Positions 14,310-59,396 of a stretch of DNA of 64,000 nt are shown one piece after another. The stretch's first letter is position 1. Every line of letters begins with the position of its first letter. Position numbers and translations under genes: made by a program. Location of the stretch: the NCBI GenBank assembly GCA_019359445.1, contig JAHHHJ010000013.1, positions 1-64,000 on the forward strand. The letters are read 5' to 3'. Source of the stretch: Kastovskya adunca ATA6-11-RM4. Its GTDB lineage: Bacteria > Cyanobacteriota > Cyanobacteriia > Cyanobacteriales > Coleofasciculaceae. Below the pieces are notes generated by a model. It saw nothing but the letters and a program-made list of their open reading frames with translations, was not told the DNA's origin and did no database searches.

Positions 14310-15353
14310 CTACATGTTACGGGAACGACCACTAAATACCCGCTCCAACTGTTTAAAGTTTTCTAGAACACGACCTGTTCCTAGAACAACACAGCTGAGA
14401 GGGTCGGCTGCCACATGGGTGACAATTCCCGTTTCATGACTGATGAGAGTATCTAGCCCTTTGAGCAAAGCACCACCACCCGCCAGCATAATTCCTCGAT
14501 CGATGATGTCCGATGCTAATTCCGGTGGTGTTCGCTCCAAGGTTCGCTTGACGGCATCCACAATCACCGAAAGGGGTTCTGACATACTTTCACGAATTTC
14601 TGGCCCCTTGATCGTTACAGTGCGGGGTAAACCAGAAAGGAGATGTAAGCCTCGTACTTCCAGATGGGCATCGTCATCATCATGGGTGGGATAGGCGGAG
14701 CCAACTCGAATTTTAATTTCTTCGGCAGTCCGTTCTCCAATCACCAGGTTGTGAACTTTCTTCATGTACTGGGTGATTGATTCGCTCAATTCATCACCCG
14801 CTACACGCACAGATTCACTAAGCACTGTCCCTTGCAAACTGAGTACGGCGACTTCTGTTGTCCCACCACCGATATCAATGATCATGTTGCCAGTGGGTTC
14901 AGCGACAGGTAATCCGGCACCGATCGCCGCTGCAACTGGCTCATCGATCAAGTAAACGTCTCTTGCTCCAGCCTGAGACGCGGCTTCCATAACGGCTCGG
15001 CGTTCAACGCCCGTAACACCGCTAGGAATACCAATAACAATTCGAGGATGAACTAAAGCTCTGCCTTCATGCACTCGCTGGATGAAGTGCTTGAGCATCA
15101 ATTCTGCTGTATCGAAGTCAGCAATGACCCCGTCGCGCAAAGGACGGATGGCAATGACATTACCAGGGGTGCGACCGAGCATTTTTTTCGCATCTTCACC
15201 CACGGCTAGTGGTATTTTTAGGTCTTGATCCATGGCGACCACGGAAGGCTCTTGGAGAACAATGCCTTTGCCGGATACGTACACTAAGGTATTAGCTGTA
15301 CCCAGGTCTATACCCATGTCTCGTGACAGGGAAAATCGACTAAAAAGACCCAC
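14310..15353 (-). CDS. mreB: Rod shape-determining actin-like protein MreB
   Basis: The 347-residue actin-fold ATPase forms the filaments that guide lateral wall growth. It shows phosphate-1 GIDLGTANTLVYV, phosphate-2 IIDIGGGTTEVAV and the adenosine-site GGGALLKGLD. The start is GTG at 15353, giving the usual short N-terminal amphipathic stretch GLFSRFS before the fold; length matches the family. It is the first gene of mreBCD and is divergent from ssb. Confidence 0.97.
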   Translation of the reverse strand: MGLFSRFSLSRDMGIDLGTANTLVYVSGKGIVLQEPSVVAMDQDLKIPLAVGEDAKKMLGRTPGNVIAIRPLRDGVIADFDTAELMLKHFIQRVHEGRALVHPRIVIGIPSGVTGVERRAVMEAASQAGARDVYLIDEPVAAAIGAGLPVAEPTGNMIIDIGGGTTEVAVLSLQGTVLSESVRVAGDELSESITQYMKKVHNLVIGERTAEEIKIRVGSAYPTHDDDDAHLEVRGLHLLSGLPRTVTIKGPEIRESMSEPLSVIVDAVKRTLERTPPELASDIIDRGIMLAGGGALLKGLDTLISHETGIVTHVAADPLSCVVLGTGRVLENFKQLERVFSGRSRNM

Positions 15354-49804: not shown

Positions 49805-50374
49805 TTAGCTGTCAGCGGTCTGACTATCAGAGACTGCTGATGGCTGATTGATTTTTTGAGGGAAAAGATAAATAACACCAGAAATGACGGTGAGGGCGAC
49901 ACAAACCCAGAAGAGGAGCAAAGAAGGAGTTGTCCAGGCTTCAGATAGCGGAGCAATCAGGAGAGCGATCGCCACAATTTGACTCACTGTTTTTAGCTTA
50001 CCCCAGATATTCGCTCCAGAGATGCTGGTATTACCTGTGAGGGTAGGACTGACTCGCCAACCCGCGATCGCCAACTCTCGCCCCAAAATCACAAACACCC
50101 CCCAAGCCGGCACCTGACCCAATTCAATCAATGCCAGCAGGGGAGCTAATACCAATAACTTATCTACTAAGGGGTCAAGAAACTTACCCAGTTCAGTGAC
50201 TTGGTTCAACTTCCGAGCTAGATAGCCATCGAGCCAATCCGTACTAGCGGCAAGAAGAAAGACGCCAAAACAAATCCAACGGGTTTGCTCCGTGGGGTTA
50301 TGAAGCCAATACAAGATAAAGGGTAATCCCAGTAAACGGGAAAAGGTAATCCAATTTGGTAAGGTCATAAACAA
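49805..50374 (-). CDS. pgsA: CDP-diacylglycerol-glycerol-3-phosphate 3-phosphatidyltransferase
   Basis: PgsA makes phosphatidylglycerophosphate, the precursor of phosphatidylglycerol, an essential thylakoid lipid. The 189-residue membrane protein has the full CDP-alcohol signature: DWLDGYLAR, then Gly and two Asp in ELGKFLDPLVDK, i.e. D-x2-D-G-x2-A-R-x8-G-x3-D-x3-D. Length is normal. Confidence 0.95.
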   Translation of the reverse strand: MFMTLPNWITFSRLLGLPFILYWLHNPTEQTRWICFGVFLLAASTDWLDGYLARKLNQVTELGKFLDPLVDKLLVLAPLLALIELGQVPAWGVFVILGRELAIAGWRVSPTLTGNTSISGANIWGKLKTVSQIVAIALLIAPLSEAWTTPSLLLFWVCVALTVISGVIYLFPQKINQPSAVSDSQTADS

Positions 50375-50866: not shown

Positions 50867-51571
50867 TTAACACGCGCCGCGTGTCTTTACAACTGCCAGA
50901 ATAGTTTTTAAAATCAGTGCCAAGTCGTAGGAAATAGACCATTTCACTTGGTAGTCTAAATCCATACAGACGATATCTTCAAAGTTTTTCACTGTTGAGC
51001 GACCGTTGGCTTGCCATTCTCCAGTGATTCCAGGCTTAACGAAAAGACGCTTGTGGTGGTGACTTTCGTAGCGATTAACTTCGTCTAAAGTAGGAGGTCG
51101 GGTTCCTACTAAGCTCATTTCTCCTTTCAGGACATTCCAAAACTGGGGGAATTCGTCTAAGCTTGTACGACGCAGAAAGCGACCAATACTGGTGACGCGG
51201 GGGTCATTTTCATTTTTAAAGATGTGACCGCTGGCTTTGTTTTCTACTAGGTGCTTCAGTTGGTCAGCGTTAACAACCATGGAGCGAAACTTCCAGATCC
51301 GGAAAGGATTCCCGTTCACACCACAGCGCATTTGGCTGTAGAAAATTGGCCCTGGGCTGTCGATTTGCATCGCGATCGCGATTGGTAGCGCGATGATGAC
51401 GGTAATCATCAAGCCAACTAAAGCTCCACAAATATCTATGACGCGCTTAATTCTGTTGGTGACAGAAGGATGTACCTGTTGCTGAAGAGCCGATATCTCA
51501 ACAGAACTAACTAAAACAGGTGCATCAATCGATAAAGCTGGCATTTTAGATGTGCTAATCACAGTTAACAA
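50867..51571 (-). CDS. Polyprenyl-phosphate sugar-1-phosphate transferase
   Basis: The 234-residue enzyme loads the first sugar phosphate on a lipid carrier for exopolysaccharide synthesis. It shows the membrane-inserting helix (about 45-70), [26 protein letters not shown] with the catalytic-region acidic pair later ([20 protein letters not shown]), and the LVGTRPP and KPGITGEWQ segments. It is the short catalytic form without the four-helix N-terminal domain. Next to no other glycan genes here, so the polymer is unknown. Confidence 0.93.
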
Positions 51572-51742: not shown

Positions 51743-53500
51743 TTACACTTTTGCCTTCACTGTGGTCATGTTCAACTCGATAGCTAGAGGTTCGTCTAGT
51801 TTTTGACTCGTCCCCAACAGAATCGCTTGGAAGTATTGGCGCAGGCGTTGGCATTGTTCTACATTGGCGTGATAGGACTGATTCTCAACTAGCTCAAACA
51901 AGGGAGCAGCGATCGCTTCATAATCTTGGTTCTCGCGAGATTCCTCTGCTAGCCAGTTCATCTGAGCTGTTGAGGGTACCAAACCAGACGGTAGTTGACC
52001 ATTGAGAAATGCCAGCAAGCGATCGCGACAGGCGCGGGTATTTACTCCTCGATGTTCGAGCCGTTGCATAATCTCCTTGACACTATAGGCGCGTTGCTCT
52101 GACTCTGGATTAGTGAAAGCACCTATAAGCTCCAACAGCAGGAAAAAGTCACTATACTGCTGCTGGGAGTGGTTCAGCACTTGGGGATAGAGCGCTAAAG
52201 TCGCTAACCCAGCCGCAACAACACAGCTAGTGGGTGAACCAATATCCTGAATCAGCGTAGCGTTGGGGAATTTTTGCTGGAGCCACTTGGACTGGGCAAT
52301 TAAGGTAGCCGTACCCCCGCTACAAATTACTTGATAAATTCCTTGTTCTGAGATGCCCGTCTGCACCAATAACTGATTAATTTCAGCATTGAGCCGGGTC
52401 AAAAAAGGTTGAATAACTTTGTCTTCCAGAGCTTGGCGGCTTACAGTACAGCAGTCGATGCCAAATTCAAAGCTAAATTCCTGGCGATGTTGCAGAATCT
52501 GCTTGATGTACCCCGCCGTTTTTAGTAGAGTTTGACCGAGAGCCGAGCGCTGCAATAATACCGCAAGGCGATCGCGCATTTCGGCATCTGGCTCTACTGG
52601 AGTGGGTAACAACAGAGACAGGGACTGGCGTTGCTCCTCTGACAGTTGAGGAACGAGCAACTGGTAGACAATATCTTGTTCTATCGCCATACCAGCGTAG
52701 GGGCAAGTACGGACGCAAAAATCACTATGGGTTAAATTAGTGTAATTCTGTGGGAGATTACCTAGCGCCAGTTCAGTTGTGGTTGTCCCGATATTAATCA
52801 CCACCGTACCGCCATTGTGAAGGGCAAACGGTGTGGGGTGTTGTTCGTCCCCATGGCGAGGACTAGGTAAACCAGCTAGAACTGTGGCGATCGTATCCTC
52901 TAGGAAAAAAATTTGCTCCGGATGCTTAACCAGCTTGGCTCCTAAAACCGCTTCTCTGACATTGAAGCGATAAGTCTCGCTCCACGCTGCCGGGTAGCCC
53001 AGAATGACGCCTTTGAGCTTGCCCAAGGCTTCTACTAGGGCGGTAGCAGATAAACCGCTTGCTGATACCTGCACCGAGCGATTAAAGTCCTCACTTGCTG
53101 GTGACAGCGTCGCCAATAAGGTTTGTAAACTTCGCTGTACCCAATAAAGTGAAACCAAACGCCCAGAATCAAGCTGTACAGTGGGTTCCCAGCGCTGCTG
53201 TTGGGACGAGTAGTAGGGAATGGCGAGATTTAAGTAAGGCTTGAAGTGTTGCAGAAAGACCTTACTGTGGTTATTTGGCAGAGTCGAACTTAAGCCAGCG
53301 ACACTCAACCGTGTCTCAGATTGGGGTTCGGTGCTGGGTTCAACACAAATGACCGCAGGTAACCGGAAGCTAGACTCCTCCCCTTCTTGGCTCACCGATG
53401 ACCAAGACAGGGGATATAACTGGGCGATCGCTTCGTTTAAGAGGACAGCAGACATCCCCGTTGTCCCGAAGTCAATCCCTAGATACCAATCATTACTCAT
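51743..53500 (-). CDS. Hsp70/actin-like ATPase domain protein
   Basis: The 585-residue protein begins with the actin-fold phosphate-1 loop YLGIDFGTTGMSAVLL and has phosphate-2-like VVINIGTTTTELALG and an adenosine-site-like VICSGGTATLIA, so an Hsp70-family nucleotide-binding domain is likely. The C-terminal 150 residues are helical and do not look like a DnaK substrate-binding domain. It lies 127 nt downstream of the 933-residue acidic protein on the same strand, so the two are likely co-expressed. The client is unknown. Confidence 0.85.
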   Translation of the reverse strand: MSNDWYLGIDFGTTGMSAVLLNEAIAQLYPLSWSSVSQEGEESSFRLPAVICVEPSTEPQSETRLSVAGLSSTLPNNHSKVFLQHFKPYLNLAIPYYSSQQQRWEPTVQLDSGRLVSLYWVQRSLQTLLATLSPASEDFNRSVQVSASGLSATALVEALGKLKGVILGYPAAWSETYRFNVREAVLGAKLVKHPEQIFFLEDTIATVLAGLPSPRHGDEQHPTPFALHNGGTVVINIGTTTTELALGNLPQNYTNLTHSDFCVRTCPYAGMAIEQDIVYQLLVPQLSEEQRQSLSLLLPTPVEPDAEMRDRLAVLLQRSALGQTLLKTAGYIKQILQHRQEFSFEFGIDCCTVSRQALEDKVIQPFLTRLNAEINQLLVQTGISEQGIYQVICSGGTATLIAQSKWLQQKFPNATLIQDIGSPTSCVVAAGLATLALYPQVLNHSQQQYSDFFLLLELIGAFTNPESEQRAYSVKEIMQRLEHRGVNTRACRDRLLAFLNGQLPSGLVPSTAQMNWLAEESRENQDYEAIAAPLFELVENQSYHANVEQCQRLRQYFQAILLGTSQKLDEPLAIELNMTTVKAKV

Positions 53501-53627
53501 AGGTCTGGTTGCTTTGAGGGAAAAGGCAATGGGCTTTGGGCATCAAAGGTGATCGCGGTTGTTGAGGTTTTGTCTACTGGTGGCACGAGAAAATAAAATT
53601 CAAAAGTGGACTTTTCGCTCTGAGAGT

Positions 53628-56429
53628 CTACTCGGTTTTTTCTTGATTTTCCAGTTGTTCGGGATTTACAGCGTCTGATTGCGATCGCTCAAAATTATTT
53701 TGCGGCGACTCTGTTGGCTGATCTTGAGTCCCACTGCCGGATTCTACCTCCGAAGTGGTTTCGCTTTCTGGCTCAACATTTAGTTCAGCACTAGCGGAGG
53801 CTTCCGAGTCCATCTCTTCCGGCGGTGGAATTGTGTCTTGATTATCCTCAGAGATTTCTTCCGTTACCTGAGCGATTTCCAAGGAGAAATCTGCCTCAGA
53901 CTCCACTATCGAGATTGCTTCTTCAGAGGTTATGGCGGTCGATTCATGATCTACCCAACCCATGAACATCTCATCAGCAATCTCGTCTTGTTGATCCCAA
54001 TCAAAAGCTTCTGGAAATAAATCCGGAGTTAAAGCTAAATTGGCTGACGGTGTTACTTCCTCTGTTCCTAAGTTAGGGGCTTCCTCCCAGACTGTGTTTG
54101 GGGAAATTTCCGCTTCAGCCTCTGGCTCCTGATAGCCTTGTTGATCCTTTGCTTCTCCCGCCTCTGTCACGGCTTCTGAGGAAGAAAATTCTGGATCGAT
54201 ATCAAACGCTTCTGGTGGTGGCAATGTGTCTTGAGTATCCGATGACTCTGGCGATGTTTCCTCCCCGTTGAGCAGCGTTACCTCATCTAAGGTGAGTTCT
54301 TCAGTGGGAAATAAACCAGGGTCGAAATCTGATTCTTCTGCTTTCAGGGAAGAGGTTTCTTCCCCTGATGTTGTGTCGAGCTGATACTCTCCATCTTCTG
54401 CCAGAACCTCAGTTGGATCAGGGAAGGTTTGGTTACCTGGGTTGAGTCCGGCGGTGGATTCGGGAGGATTCCTCTCAAACGCTTCTGTATCGGCGGTTGG
54501 TGTTCTCTCCGTTAGAGGGTTCTCCAATGTTGACGGTTGCGGTAGTCCTAAACCTTCAAAGCGGTGGAGGTCTTCGCTTAATTGCTGGAGTGTTGTTTGA
54601 TCTAGCCGTAAGTCTCGATTTTGTTCGCGCGATGCGCGATCGCTGCTCAACAAATCTTCATTAGGGGAGGCAGGGTCATAATTTTCTTCTGTGGCGCTCA
54701 CTGTTGATTCACCCCAGCTTGAAAATCCTGAAAATTGGTCAGGAGAATTTGGGGAATTGTCTGCCTCGATCCCCATTTCTTCAAATAAATCTGTCAGAGC
54801 ATTGATTTTTTCGCTCCGCTCGGAATCTTCCGTACCTTCTGGATCAGGCAGGACATCAACGTTAGGTAGCGATACATCTACCGCATCCACCCTGTCAGTT
54901 GTGGTCGCCTTATCCGGTAAATCAGCATCTAGAAATCCTATTGGCGGCGAATTTGGAGAAAACAAAATCTCTTCCCAAGAACCAGTTGACTGCTCCAAAG
55001 GCAACGGCGTTTCTGGAGTTAAATTTGCCGGGTCTGATATCCCATCAAACAAGGCGTCCTTCATCTGAGTTGAAAGGGAATTGACGGGTTGACTCAGCGG
55101 TGGCTGTTGAGCCGCCGGATCGATTTCAGGTGCCGTCTGTGATGCGATCGCCTCTTCCGCCTCGGCACCTACTAAGTCAGGCTCATCTAACGGTAATGGT
55201 GGGCTAACCGCATTAGTTCCAAAGAGACTTTCGTACAACTCGTCAATTTCCTCTGGAAGGCGTTCCCTCCCTTCTACGCCAGAGGGGGAACTTTCTAGTT
55301 GACTGAGCCACGCTTCAAGTTCCTGCCTATTTGACAACTCCGGCACCAGGACGCCCTCAGTTTCGGGAAATAGGGATTGAGACTCATCCAGGTCTATCTG
55401 GATTAACGCGTCCATTGCCTCAGCATCTGGTAGTGTTTCCTGGCGATCGCTGTCCTCATTCAGAGGAGGAGTGTCTTGGTTCTGGTCTTCCTCTTCTGAG
55501 GGGGTGTTAGGAGCCGTACCTGTTGAGGTCATCTCCATACCCGCAAAGGGGAACTGTGATGGTTTGGCTACACTCGGTTTCGCCAGAGTATTTAGGCTTA
55601 ACTCCAAAGGTGGGAAGGGTTCTGAGCCAACTGGCGGCATCGTTTGGCTGCGGTCTAAAACGTCATCTGCATTCTTTGGCAAGGATTCCAGAGTTGAAGT
55701 TTCTTTCCCCAGTTGTTGTATTAGGCGATTAACCAGCACGGTAAACATCATCTCTGTGCGCCCGCCCAGGTTATGCATGTTTTCTAGTCCTTGGGCTAGG
55801 GACTCCTGATAGCTTTGAAGATTGCGCTGGAACGTCTCGAAGATGATGCGTTGATTTTCGTCCAGGGTAAGGATTAATTGATCAAACTGGTTGGGGACTT
55901 GACTCAGTTGCTCTAGGTGTTGGGGTTGGGTAGGTAAGGAAGATGGAGTGTTCAGACGTTGGTTAAAGCTGTCTTGCCATCGCTCCATCAACGCTTGAGA
56001 AAATTCAGCGAGCAATTGCTGTTGATCTGCTGTTTGTTCGCGAGGCGCTTGATTTTGTTGCCGAGTCGCTTCGAGTTGCCGTATTTCTGCTAAGAGGGAC
56101 TCTCGCTGTTGACGCAGGATGGCAACATCGGCTTGTAAGGGTTGGAGTAATTCTGAGCGCAGAATATCAACGGCTTGAGAGACGGATTGCCCAATCGGTT
56201 GATTTAGCTCCGACGGAACGGTGTTGGCGGCGGGTAATGGCTCCGAAGCCGCCTTTTTTTGCTGGACAACGAGATAGCTCCGCACTCGTTCGAGAACTTG
56301 ACGCAAAGCCGCGCTATCTCCTGGCTTATACCAGGGAAGATGAGAACCGGCATTGGGCAAAATGCGGTCAATATCAGCAATGAGGTCTTGAATATCCTTC
56401 TGAGAAGTCACGGTGGAACCCAAATGCAA
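53628..56429 (-). CDS. Large acidic low-complexity protein with N-terminal coiled coil
   Basis: The 933-residue protein has a structured N-terminal part (about 1-240): a short globular start (DIQDLIADIDRILPNAGSHL) and coiled-coil segments (about 90-135 and 190-240). About 690 residues that look disordered follow, rich in Glu, Asp, Ser, Pro and Thr. Short motifs recur in the tail: QDTPPLNED, QETLPDAEAMD, QDTLPPPEAFD and QDTIPPPEEMD. No membrane segment or catalytic motif. It is the first of two genes with the Hsp70-like gene. I do not recognise the family; a scaffold or adaptor role is inferred from composition. Confidence 0.75.
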   Translation of the reverse strand: MHLGSTVTSQKDIQDLIADIDRILPNAGSHLPWYKPGDSAALRQVLERVRSYLVVQQKKAASEPLPAANTVPSELNQPIGQSVSQAVDILRSELLQPLQADVAILRQQRESLLAEIRQLEATRQQNQAPREQTADQQQLLAEFSQALMERWQDSFNQRLNTPSSLPTQPQHLEQLSQVPNQFDQLILTLDENQRIIFETFQRNLQSYQESLAQGLENMHNLGGRTEMMFTVLVNRLIQQLGKETSTLESLPKNADDVLDRSQTMPPVGSEPFPPLELSLNTLAKPSVAKPSQFPFAGMEMTSTGTAPNTPSEEEDQNQDTPPLNEDSDRQETLPDAEAMDALIQIDLDESQSLFPETEGVLVPELSNRQELEAWLSQLESSPSGVEGRERLPEEIDELYESLFGTNAVSPPLPLDEPDLVGAEAEEAIASQTAPEIDPAAQQPPLSQPVNSLSTQMKDALFDGISDPANLTPETPLPLEQSTGSWEEILFSPNSPPIGFLDADLPDKATTTDRVDAVDVSLPNVDVLPDPEGTEDSERSEKINALTDLFEEMGIEADNSPNSPDQFSGFSSWGESTVSATEENYDPASPNEDLLSSDRASREQNRDLRLDQTTLQQLSEDLHRFEGLGLPQPSTLENPLTERTPTADTEAFERNPPESTAGLNPGNQTFPDPTEVLAEDGEYQLDTTSGEETSSLKAEESDFDPGLFPTEELTLDEVTLLNGEETSPESSDTQDTLPPPEAFDIDPEFSSSEAVTEAGEAKDQQGYQEPEAEAEISPNTVWEEAPNLGTEEVTPSANLALTPDLFPEAFDWDQQDEIADEMFMGWVDHESTAITSEEAISIVESEADFSLEIAQVTEEISEDNQDTIPPPEEMDSEASASAELNVEPESETTSEVESGSGTQDQPTESPQNNFERSQSDAVNPEQLENQEKTE

Positions 56430-57189
56430 GAACGAGCGTGGCGAGGTGATATCGCCGCTTGATGCGAGAGACTAGGTATCCTCATTTCAAGGGTGAGGTC
56501 AAGTTGAGGAGCAAGTAGCTCGCTACCGCTAGCTACTAATGTTAATGCGCGATCGCAACGTAACCCCATCAGATTTGCTCATCAGTGAGTGCGAACTGCC
56601 TTGAGCGCTCACTATGGCGGGAAAAAATCCCTTGCCAGCTACCAAATCCCCACCAGCAGAACTACCAAGCATCGATTCTGACTGGTAAGATTTTCACCAT
56701 CATAAACGCATTCCTCCCTCTCATCTGTCAAGACGGGAGAATAGGGAATCTATATAGAGGAGTTTTAAAAGACTCCTCTATATAGCGCATAATAACGAGG
56801 TGCATACTGCTTTGACTGTTGTTTTGAACCGACTTTTGCCTGATTAGCGGTGTCCTTGTGACGTTTTGTGCAATGTCGTTGCCATTGTCGGCAGGCAACG
56901 AAGTAAAATCTTCAGGCATTTGGGATTTGTCAATGGTGCTCTAATGTGTCCGCCGCACCAAGCGAAGGCTCTAAACAGCCTAGGGCTTGTTGGGACTTCA
57001 ACGAGAGCGTATTGTCCTTGTTCACTCTTAATTGAGTAACAAAGTAGAAAGCAGGTAAACAAACTACAACAGTCACGTTAGCCAAGCGTCTTCTGATGCT
57101 TTGGCGATCGCGCTTCATCATCGTCGCCTGCCTCAAACAGTGGACTACTGATTATTTTGTCCACGACGTTTACAATGTGCCTTGGCTCT
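56430..57189. other. Divergent intergenic region upstream of the Crp-family gene
   Basis: About 760 nt without a supported gene, apart from the strong palindrome listed separately. Small frames (66-72 codons) here have no features. Confidence 0.5.
56750..56785. repeat. Perfect 14-bp inverted repeat (hairpin)
   Basis: CTATATAGAGGAGT (56750-56763) and ACTCCTCTATATAG (56772-56785) flank TTTAAAAG. The hairpin is near the middle of a gene-free region between divergent genes, so it is not an obvious terminator. It may be a small RNA, an operator or a MITE-like remnant. Confidence 0.75.
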
Positions 57190-57894
57190 ATGGAAGACCG
57201 CTACAGCCCACAAGAAATGAATCACGTTAACGAGTTGATTTGCTCAGCTCCTTTCTTCACGGGCTTGCCCGAAGGCAGTGTGGAGAAAGCCACAGCTCAT
57301 GTCGTCACCCGTGGTCATCCAGCTAATCGGGTCATTCTCCTGGAAAATGACTGGGGTGGCTCCGTGTACTTTATCTTGGAGGGTTGGGCAAAGATTCGTA
57401 CATACAATCTCGATGGCAAAGAGGTAACGCTCAATATTTTGGGTAAGGGAGAACTCTTTGGTGAAATGGCAGCCTTGGATGAAGTGCCTCGTTCTACAGA
57501 TGTCATTACCTTGACGCCAACCACTATTGGAAGTGTTCCAGCACAAGATTTTGTCCAGTTAATTCATTCCGAACCTCTGGCTGGTGTTCGTTTGGCACAG
57601 CTAATGGCAAAACGCCTGCGGCAAGTCAATCGTCGCTTGCGTTTACGAGAGTCAGACAGTGTGTCGCGAGTCGCAGATACATTGTTATTTCTCGCCGAGA
57701 GTCAAGGCAAAACCCGACAGCAGGGAACAGAGATTCCCAACCTGCCCCATCGAGAACTCAGTAGCCTCAGTGGCTTGGCACGGGAGACAGTCACCAGGGT
57801 ATTGACTAAGCTGGAGAAGAAAGCGCTAATTAAGCGCGATCACGATATTCTTTGTATTCCCGATTTACAAGCCTTGGAGAGAATTATTGCGTAA
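57190..57894 (+). CDS. Crp/Fnr-family transcriptional regulator
   Basis: The 234-residue protein has a cyclic-nucleotide-binding jellyroll with the phosphate-binding-cassette-like GELFGEMAALDEVPRST (about 88-104), which keeps the Glu and Arg-Ser that contact cAMP in Crp. A long helix and a Crp-type HTH follow (about 186-213, HRELSSLSGLARETVTRVL). It may therefore respond to cAMP. Starts: ATG 57190 chosen because the fold begins soon after; TTG 57157 and ATG 57175 are alternatives. It is not NtcA by the HTH sequence. Transcribed toward the universal stress gene. Confidence 0.9.
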   Translation: MEDRYSPQEMNHVNELICSAPFFTGLPEGSVEKATAHVVTRGHPANRVILLENDWGGSVYFILEGWAKIRTYNLDGKEVTLNILGKGELFGEMAALDEVPRSTDVITLTPTTIGSVPAQDFVQLIHSEPLAGVRLAQLMAKRLRQVNRRLRLRESDSVSRVADTLLFLAESQGKTRQQGTEIPNLPHRELSSLSGLARETVTRVLTKLEKKALIKRDHDILCIPDLQALERIIA

Positions 57895-58616: not shown

Positions 58617-59396
58617 ATGAGCGATTCCTTTGATGACGCCCACCTTAATCAGAATGCTGATGATGAAGCACCCAACGGTAAGCCTTCAAAATCGGTAACC
58701 CAATCCCAAAGTGGCAATGAAGTAGGGCAGGACTTGGAGCCTAACCAGGGTTTGAAGGCGTTACCGAAGACGGGACTGACAACTGACCCCATCGTGATGG
58801 TGGAAACGGCATTTCTTGCCAGTACTGCCAGCTTGATTTGGCTGATTAATTATTACTTTCCTTTAGGGCCAGTGTGGCGGATGTTTTTCCCCATCCCGAT
58901 TGCGCTGGTTTATTTGCGGCGAGGAAATCGCGCCTCCTGGATGGCAGCGTTGGTGTCGGGGTTACTGCTTTCGGTGCTAATGGGCCCGACCCGCAGTATC
59001 TTGTTTGTGATTCCCTATGGTTTGATGGGTGTCCAGTTAGGGGTGATGTGGAAACGTCATGTCGGCTGGTTGTGGTCGATTGGGGTGGGGTCAATTTTAG
59101 GGACGATTGGCTTCTTTTTCCGGTTTTGGCTGCTGTCGTTGCTGTTGGGTGAAGACCTCTGGGTTTATGTAATGACCCAGATTACCCAATTATTGGAGTG
59201 GGGGTTTGTCAGGCTAGGGTTGCTGGCACAGCCGAGTCTGCCCTTGGTGCAGGCGATCGCGATCATCTCTATTATCATCAACCAAATTGTTTATCTATTT
59301 GTGGTTCATCTCGTGGCACTGTTGATGCTCGATCGTTTGGGCAATCCGATCCCACGACCACCGAACTGGGTGCAGGTCTTGCTGGATTACGAATAA
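58617..59396 (+). CDS. DUF2232 membrane protein
   Basis: The 259-residue protein has a hydrophilic N-terminus of about 65 residues and then about seven membrane segments (for example ASTASLIWLINYYFPLGPVW, and IAIISIIINQIVYLFVVHLV near the end). It matches the DUF2232 / YybS-like layout, possibly an S-component-like or lipid-related membrane protein. It lies 33 nt after the universal stress gene and 5 nt before cobT, so it is likely in one operon with cobT. Confidence 0.85.
   Translation: MSDSFDDAHLNQNADDEAPNGKPSKSVTQSQSGNEVGQDLEPNQGLKALPKTGLTTDPIVMVETAFLASTASLIWLINYYFPLGPVWRMFFPIPIALVYLRRGNRASWMAALVSGLLLSVLMGPTRSILFVIPYGLMGVQLGVMWKRHVGWLWSIGVGSILGTIGFFFRFWLLSLLLGEDLWVYVMTQITQLLEWGFVRLGLLAQPSLPLVQAIAIISIIINQIVYLFVVHLVALLMLDRLGNPIPRPPNWVQVLLDYE

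Follow-up and report, generated by a model that had tools for sequence, protein, structure and literature searches.

A coiled coil homologous to that of SepJ-like proteins in a cyanobacterial acidic protein paired with, or fused to, an Hsp70-like protein

The question raised by this locus is whether an acidic, largely disordered protein and the Hsp70-like protein encoded beside it work as one system and, if so, in what process. In the window (the whole stretch of 64,000 nucleotides that was analyzed), the open reading frame (ORF) of the acidic protein (53628-56429, minus strand; 933 aa from a TTG start) lies upstream of that of an Hsp70/actin-fold protein (51743-53500, minus strand; 585 aa), and the ORF list places 127 bp between them. 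The length of 933 residues given in the original prediction is correct for the ORF; however, the real start is likely the GTG at 56411, since translation from there, (M)TSQ.., matches the starts of orthologues, and this would yield 927 aa.

Domains and neighborhood of the two genes

The acidic protein comprises an N-terminal helical domain (residues 11-59; 56253-56399, minus strand) with the pattern IQxLIAxID...RVRxYL, recognized by profile (E 7e-19) and alignment, followed by a coiled coil (residues 80-246; 55692-56192, minus strand) for which profiles establish homology with the coiled coil of SepJ-like permeases. The remainder (residues 247-933; 53631-55691, minus strand) is an acidic linker or tail, assigned as disordered from its composition and from AF2 disorder in a natural fusion. 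Beyond residue 260 the tail consists of 23.8% D+E and 3.3% K+R, with a net charge of -138 over 673 aa. An N-terminal coiled coil and a long acidic tail had both been predicted, and the coiled-coil profile, the composition, and the disorder of the linker in AF2 bear this out; that this coiled coil is homologous to the one in SepJ had gone unnoticed.

Searches of curated families with either window protein yielded only sub-threshold matches in Pfam (PilM, FtsA, and others) and a weak HscA match in NCBIfam (20.6 bits vs. 708), and the top match in a PDB sequence search was a DnaK (E 0.41). The structure of the Hsp70-like half was therefore modeled from an alignment with 49 homologues (AF2; pLDDT 89.3, pTM 0.91). 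In fold comparisons DnaK scored Z 22.5 over 364 residues (rmsd 4.2) and MreB was nearly tied (8aam; Z 20.8, rmsd 3.1 over 296), which indicates an actin-type fold; the first Foldseek row was the Hsp70/Hsp40 complex RAC, which includes Ssz1. Fold matches center on the nucleotide-binding-type domain (residues 1-440; 52181-53500, minus strand) and mostly extend up to about residue 440. Residues 440-585 (51746-52183, minus strand) form a separate domain in the model, mostly helical with one hairpin, for which no Pfam match was found and which nine compact relatives do without. Neither a beta-sandwich substrate-binding domain nor a lid is present in the model, in agreement with the earlier description of an Hsp70-like fold without a DnaK-type substrate domain.

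Profile searches place the protein at a distance from each of the families that it resembles. Pfam HSP70 does not match the window protein and matches two of the 49 members at E <= 0.01 (best 8e-4). At the same threshold the MreB profile matches three of 49 (best 0.003) and Pfam PilM_2 nine of 49 (best 1.8e-4; window protein 11.5 bits vs. 27), in each case below the cut-off of the profile, and the HscA profile matches 10 of 49. In profile-profile comparison the closest relatives were an Hsp70-like protein from its own genome (E 4.9e-9), MreB (3.1e-5), and DnaK (1.6e-4).

At the positions that we take to be the phosphate-1, connect-1, and adenosine sites, the phosphate-1 Asp (D10 in the window protein) is kept in 43 of 49 relatives (three gaps), the connect-1 Glu in 36 of 49, and the adenosine-site Gly (G395) in 49 of 49. 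The phosphate-2 aspartate, presumably the position of Hsc70 D199, is Asn236 in the window protein; among the 49 this position is N in 26, D in nine, and another residue in 14, and an MreB-like TTE follows the site. Hydrolysis is doubtful because this aspartate is kept in only nine of 49 relatives, and full forms are expected from their sequences to bind nucleotide and to hydrolyze it poorly. Ssz1 is an Hsp70 that binds ATP without hydrolyzing it. The window ATPase shares its nucleotide-binding fold with DnaK/Hsp70, Ssz1, and Hsp110, but differs from them in its identity of only ~13-18%, its lack of a substrate domain, its own C-terminal domain, and its eroded phosphate-2 site. Its likeness to MreB comprises the fold and the TTE after phosphate-2; however, MreB is a separate protein (one is encoded elsewhere in the window, at 14310-15353), whereas relatives of the window ATPase are fused to a coiled coil and acidic linker. 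Collectively, the model and alignment show a predicted Hsp70/actin fold with an eroded phosphate-2 site, in which a distinct C-terminal domain takes the place of the Hsp70 substrate domain.

Downstream of the pair are genes for a bacterial sugar transferase of the exopolysaccharide-initiating type (50867-51571, minus strand; PF02397, E 1e-64) and for PgsA (49805-50374, minus strand; TIGR00560, above cut-off). On the other side are a divergent Crp-family regulator (57157-57894, plus strand) and a DUF2232 membrane protein (58617-59396, plus strand). Among 74 fetched stretches of 6-20 kb each, Crp lies near the system in 60, DUF2232 in 59, CobT in 46, the sugar transferase in 21, and PgsA in 16. 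The two halves keep one ancestral locus. No division genes were found in this neighborhood, and the neighbors point toward polysaccharide or lipid enzymes. Control of the divergent promoter by Crp was considered and rejected, as the best TGTGAN6TCACA-like site beat shuffles (p < 0.05) in only one of 58 intergenic regions.

One system, fused or split, with conserved linker motifs

We surveyed a sample of 291 cyanobacterial genomes, 74 of which carry the system. The ATPase is present in 70 of the 291, and a profile search added no further strong match: the ATPase profile matches 106 of 291 genomes at E <= 0.001, but only 70 of these matches are strong (best E <= 1e-56), and the rest, which are short, lie near profile positions 309-446, and hit other Hsp70-like proteins, were not counted. 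Matches of the coiled-coil profile away from the locus (SepJ-like or weak) were likewise not counted as the system.

Both halves are encoded in a single ORF (555-2608 aa) in 43 of the 74 loci, and in two adjacent genes on the same strand in a further 19, with the acidic gene first and gaps of -128 to 149 bp. Eight loci have an ATPase with no recognized coiled coil, and in seven of them (L066, L068, L069, L130-L133) the start resembles the N-terminal domain by eye. The eighth (L088, genome G116) was rejected as a genuine case of an ATPase alone, since a frameshift seems to disrupt its coiled-coil gene and just 11 residues of the N-terminal domain match. The acidic gene occurs without the ATPase in four loci, all of which retain Crp, the sugar transferase, and PgsA, and these are therefore probably losses of the ATPase. 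On a quick tree of the ATPase, the fused and split states have switched at least seven times, and three of these switches are forced by well supported branches. Among the best 80 of 326 relatives, which form a named set that overlaps in part with the sampled genomes and is thus not fully independent, 66 loci are fused, 10 are split, and four have no recognized coiled coil in the stretch examined; all 80 belong to Cyanobacteriota, 63 of them to Nostocales.

The two genes are thus one system, and natural fusions are stronger proof of pairing than co-occurrence. The functional pairing that had been predicted is upheld by the fused and adjacent loci, and the independent distribution that would have spoken against it was not seen across these cyanobacteria. 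A full-text literature search whose coverage leaves out most subscription journals found no described system with this pair, as the original prediction had also stated.

Two reduced forms were observed. Four f5 loci (L063, L064, L065, and L129), from genomes with no SepJ-like protein, encode compact fusions of 555-586 aa that keep the coiled coil and have lost the linker, the linker motifs, and the ATPase C-terminal domain. Two others (L099:11488-12840 and L134:10606-11943) have a badly eroded ATPase half, with two short matches and the phosphate-1 region unaligned; they retain the C-terminal domain and lie downstream of an acidic protein of 1740-1754 aa.

Linker length ranges from 0 to 1716 aa across loci, and linkers longer than 150 aa contain 15-34% D+E and 1-8% K+R. 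When a natural fusion of 1166 aa was modeled with AF2, the equivalent linker (residues 281-541) had pLDDT < 50, with short helices at residues 379-385 and 454-457. The model has a pTM of 0.46 and no confident contact, such that docking is not visible in it.

The original prediction held that QDT(L/I)PPPE motifs, repeated at four places in the tail, dock the ATPase or a polymerizing partner. The four places exist, but only the last two fit the pattern: QDTPPLNED (55452-55478) and QETLPDAE (55419-55442) do not and are not conserved, whereas QDTLPPPE (54210-54233) and QDTIPPPE (53817-53840; all minus strand) are exact. At least one exact copy arose in only 1 of 20000 shuffles, so the motif is not due to chance within the window protein. 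The two exact motifs fall one in each unit of a 39-nt direct repeat, whose units are 79% identical. QDT.PPPE occurs in one of 59 linkers of relatives, that being the window protein itself, and in none of 76 named linkers (from the best 80 of 326 relatives), and was rejected as a conserved motif. QDT(L/I)PPPE is a local duplication that is private to the genome of the window among the genomes examined.

The idea of docking-like motifs in the tail nevertheless stands, in the form of three conserved motifs. M1 (EEIDELYESLF; 55221-55253, minus strand) was found by regular expression in 26 of 59 linkers, as compared to at most two in shuffles, and by profile in 46 of 61. M2 (INALTDLF; 54783-54806, minus strand) was found in 23 of 59 (at most two in shuffles) and 38 of 61, respectively. 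M3 (YDPASPNEDLL ... LDQTTLQQLSEDLHRFE; 54555-54680, minus strand) has two parts, M3a in 32 and M3b in 24 of 59 (at most one in shuffles), with profile matches in 46 and 45 of 61. The null was 200 shuffles of the linkers, and the consensus sequences are DEVDxLYASLF (M1), DTIxxLTDLL (M2), and YxxASPxENLL...LDxxxLxQLxxDLxxF (M3). Profiles match M1 in 73, M2 in 65, M3a in 67, and M3b in 74 of the 76 named linkers (from the best 80 of 326 relatives). Of the 53 loci with at least two motifs, 51 have them in the same order, and the two short helices in the modeled fusion fall inside M1 and M2. No convincing M1-M3 was found in SepJ-like proteins; the M2 matches were acidic proteins of two genomes outside motif building, and the linker table excludes two SepJ-like coiled-coil matches of 616 and 625 aa. 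DLF repeats occur in 40 of 59 linkers, a mild excess over shuffles (mean 28.2, maximum 36), and f7 linkers (L089, L091, L105, L113, L124, L126, and L127) carry 4-9 repeated DLF-type motifs each.

At least one of M1 and M2 occurs in 51 of the 61 loci with the ATPase C-terminal domain, as compared to none of 13 without it. Nine of these 13 are almost linker-free; the informative ones are the other four, which have a linker and lack the ATPase, and none of the four has either motif (Fisher p 0.0015, without correction for kinship). By comparison, 49 of the 61 loci and two of the four carry M3. Since M1 and M2 track the ATPase C-terminal domain whereas M3 does not, M1 and M2 probably serve the ATPase, and M3 may bind something other than the ATPase. 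M1 and M2 are absent from 10 of 61 full forms and are therefore not essential for docking everywhere.

A coiled coil shared with SepJ-like proteins

Most genomes with the system also encode a second protein that the coiled-coil profile recovers, with a coiled coil at ~20-205, a linker, ~10 hydrophobic TM-like segments, and EamA. This order of coiled coil, linker, and EamA/DME permease is what we term SepJ-like, a name given by architecture and not by sequence comparison with alr2338. SepJ (FraG) of Anabaena has the same layout (residues 28-207, 208-411, and 412-751, respectively; PMC6463045, from the text available). The second protein is 603 aa in the genome of the window (G000:C21; L081:8342-10153, minus strand), and open frames in Nostocaceae are mostly 718-855 aa, as compared to 751 in Anabaena. 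HmpF was rejected as the coiled-coil paralogue, because the paralogue that the genome of the window itself encodes is an EamA permease.

Alignment of the acidic and SepJ-like coiled coils with hhalign gave a probability of 99.8 (E 1.5e-27, 183 columns) versus 4.0 (E 0.011) in a reversed control. Searches from either side recover these two proteins per genome and few weak matches beyond them. These sequence comparisons show that the coiled coil of the acidic protein is homologous to that of SepJ-like proteins. In a tree of the coiled coils, a single branch (SH-aLRT 84) separates the acidic from the SepJ-like sequences (66 and 25 rows), which suggests that they probably arose by one old duplication or domain transfer.

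Like the acidic protein, SepJ has an N-terminal helical stretch, a two-part coiled coil, and a variable low-complexity linker, but its C-terminal part is a DME/EamA permease, and its linker has a high content of Pro, Ser, and Thr. The acidic protein is soluble; its linker is acidic and bears the three conserved motifs, and an Hsp70-like domain is either fused to it or encoded as its partner. Neither an EamA match nor a TM-like 19-mer was found in the window acidic protein, and no TM-like 19-mer was found in 85 of 93 system proteins; the eight exceptions have one segment each, at 1.61-1.89.

Of the 74 genomes that have the system, 60 encode a SepJ-like protein (called at E <= 1e-9, away from the system), versus one of the 217 that lack it; conversely, the system occurs in 60 of the 61 genomes that encode a SepJ-like protein and in 14 of the other 230. 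Fisher's test gives p 2e-47, a value that ignores kinship and growth form and overstates the case, because filamentous growth and kinship both confound the co-occurrence. By form, a SepJ-like protein accompanies 58 of 61 full systems, none of nine compact (f5) systems, and two of four ATPase-less systems; it is present in 30 of 30 genomes of Nostocaceae (f6) with the system. In one family, represented by a single genus, three of six genomes have both and three, of 3.1-3.4 Mb, have neither. A wider profile built from the SepJ side recovers the same 61 genomes plus short matches, which are permease-like with a shortened coiled coil in G211, G183, and G288 and lie within 109-124-aa frames in G036, G083, and G239; G183 and G288 also have no ATPase half.

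Several neighbors of SepJ-like genes were recorded in passing. In the genome of the window, the gene adjoins an ORF (L081:10602-11867) that by eye resembles a PiT phosphate transporter, and an ORF of similar kind lies near the gene in G288 (L253); a DnaJ-plus-TPR protein (L081:4822-5883) is encoded ~2.5 kb away. In G284 and G133 (L092:17488-19338 and L100:17551-19428), the SepJ-like gene is at most ~7 kb from the system, on different sides.

According to the available text of two papers, the coiled coil of SepJ has been considered extracellular, binds peptidoglycan, and has been modeled through the membrane and partly in the periplasm (PMC12096826, PMC6463045); the same sources describe SepJ as having no signal peptide and the extracellular view as challenged. 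In the system described here, the coiled coil is joined to an Hsp70-type domain in 43 loci and 85 of 93 proteins have no TM stretch, which suggests that a SepJ-type coiled coil may be able to live in the cytoplasm.

Possible roles of the system

We tentatively favor the reading that the pair is one cytoplasmic, nucleotide-binding adaptor of filamentous cyanobacteria that works with SepJ at the septum. Its N-terminal and coiled-coil parts would pair or mix with SepJ-type coiled coils on the cytoplasmic face of the septum, and the acidic linker would serve as a flexible tether. M1 and M2 may dock on the Hsp70-like half, probably on its C-terminal domain, whereas M3 may have another docking partner. 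By binding nucleotide and hydrolyzing it slowly or not at all, the Hsp70-like half could toggle between docked and free states, making it a regulated adaptor for assembly of the septum or septal junctions and not a general chaperone. We infer the interaction with SepJ, and three observations count against this adaptor reading by breaking the SepJ pairing: the two f12 genomes, which have the ATPase and no SepJ-like match; the nine compact f5 systems; and G051, the sole sampled genome with a SepJ-like protein (G051:C1:1956514-1957182) and no trace of the system, whose congener G231 has both. The permeases with a shortened coiled coil in G211, G183, and G288, the confounding of the co-occurrence, the lack of division genes near the locus, and the absence of a confident contact in the modeled fusion also weigh against it. 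Furthermore, if the periplasmic placement of the SepJ coiled coil in the available text of PMC12096826 is right, the coiled coil would be kept away from a cytoplasmic partner.

A somewhat unlikely alternative is that the system is a cytoplasmic scaffold for synthesis of envelope polysaccharide or phospholipid, in which the SepJ-like coiled coil is just a shared ancient part and the Hsp70-like half holds an enzyme at the membrane. The sugar transferase and PgsA near a minority of loci, and their retention at all four ATPase-less loci, are consistent with such a scaffold, as is the DnaK1/DnaJ3 system that connects pili with polysaccharide export in Nostoc punctiforme (available text of PMC9239167). 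However, DnaK1 is a true DnaK, and the link to these enzymes was not seen in most stretches of Nostocaceae, the family in which every sampled genome with the system also has a SepJ-like protein. The near tie between MreB and DnaK in fold and the TTE could instead point to a polymerizing actin-like system, with filaments made by the Hsp70/MreB-fold half, nucleated or capped by the coiled coil, and bundled under control of the acidic tail; FcmB, an actin-like protein that controls shape in filamentous cyanobacteria (PMC12645912, from the text available), offers a precedent. We consider this quite improbable: phosphate-2 is eroded in 40 of 49 members, covalent tails of up to 1716 aa would crowd a filament, and matches to the MreB profile are few and weak.

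It is very improbable that the system is a true Hsp70 chaperone machine with the acidic tail as a holdase or built-in client. The Hsp70 fold, the Hsp70-like protein that is its nearest profile relative in its own genome, and the HscA matches fit such a machine, but the missing substrate-binding beta domain, the near absence of Pfam HSP70 matches, and the eroded catalytic site do not. Docking of the ATPase by QDT(L/I)PPPE repeats, as in the original prediction, is scarcely credible and is refuted as a general mechanism: the two exact copies exceed chance, yet they belong to a DNA repeat and are missing from the linkers of relatives in which the ATPase is conserved.

The known systems nearest to the adaptor that we favor differ from it in several respects. 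FcmB and FcmC are likewise an actin-type protein and a partner, encoded by adjacent genes in filamentous cyanobacteria, but as far as the available text of PMC12645912 describes them, FcmB is ParM-type and encoded upstream of fcmC, whereas the ATPase here is Hsp70-type and downstream or fused. Identity with FcmB was rejected on gene order and description, the partner gene being upstream or fused in 62 of 62 loci with both halves recognized. SepI and SepT, two septal proteins of multicellular cyanobacteria, also contain coiled coils and interact with SepJ, but no Hsp70-like half is described in the available text of PMC12096826 and PMC10653889, and SepT has two N-terminal TM segments. The Hsp70/actin fold and the SepJ-type coiled coil have both been described before, whereas their combination and a linker with such motifs appear to be new, as far as the literature searched goes.

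A bolder version of the adaptor, which we regard as rather unlikely, is a dedicated Hsp70-fold protein of the same coiled-coil origin as SepJ that pairs with the SepJ coiled coil in the cytoplasm and assembles or gates septal junctions according to its nucleotide state. ZipN helps to position SepJ and has a DnaJ-like domain, the assignment of which is uncertain (PMC6391411, PMC7766704, from the text available); this domain as a possible co-factor for the Hsp70-like half is a lead only. If this version is true, the SepJ coiled coil would be cytoplasmic, contrary to the current periplasmic model.

SepJ is needed for long filaments and for cell-to-cell exchange, but its role has been described as elusive, and it is disputed on which side of the membrane its coiled coil lies (available text of PMC12096826 and PMC6463045). 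The system also clearly exemplifies a pair of fused proteins in which the Hsp70 fold is eroded and motifs in the linker are conserved. A soluble protein that joins a SepJ-type coiled coil to an Hsp70-type domain is a new candidate partner of SepJ, and as a soluble homologue it makes the question of SepJ coiled-coil topology testable.
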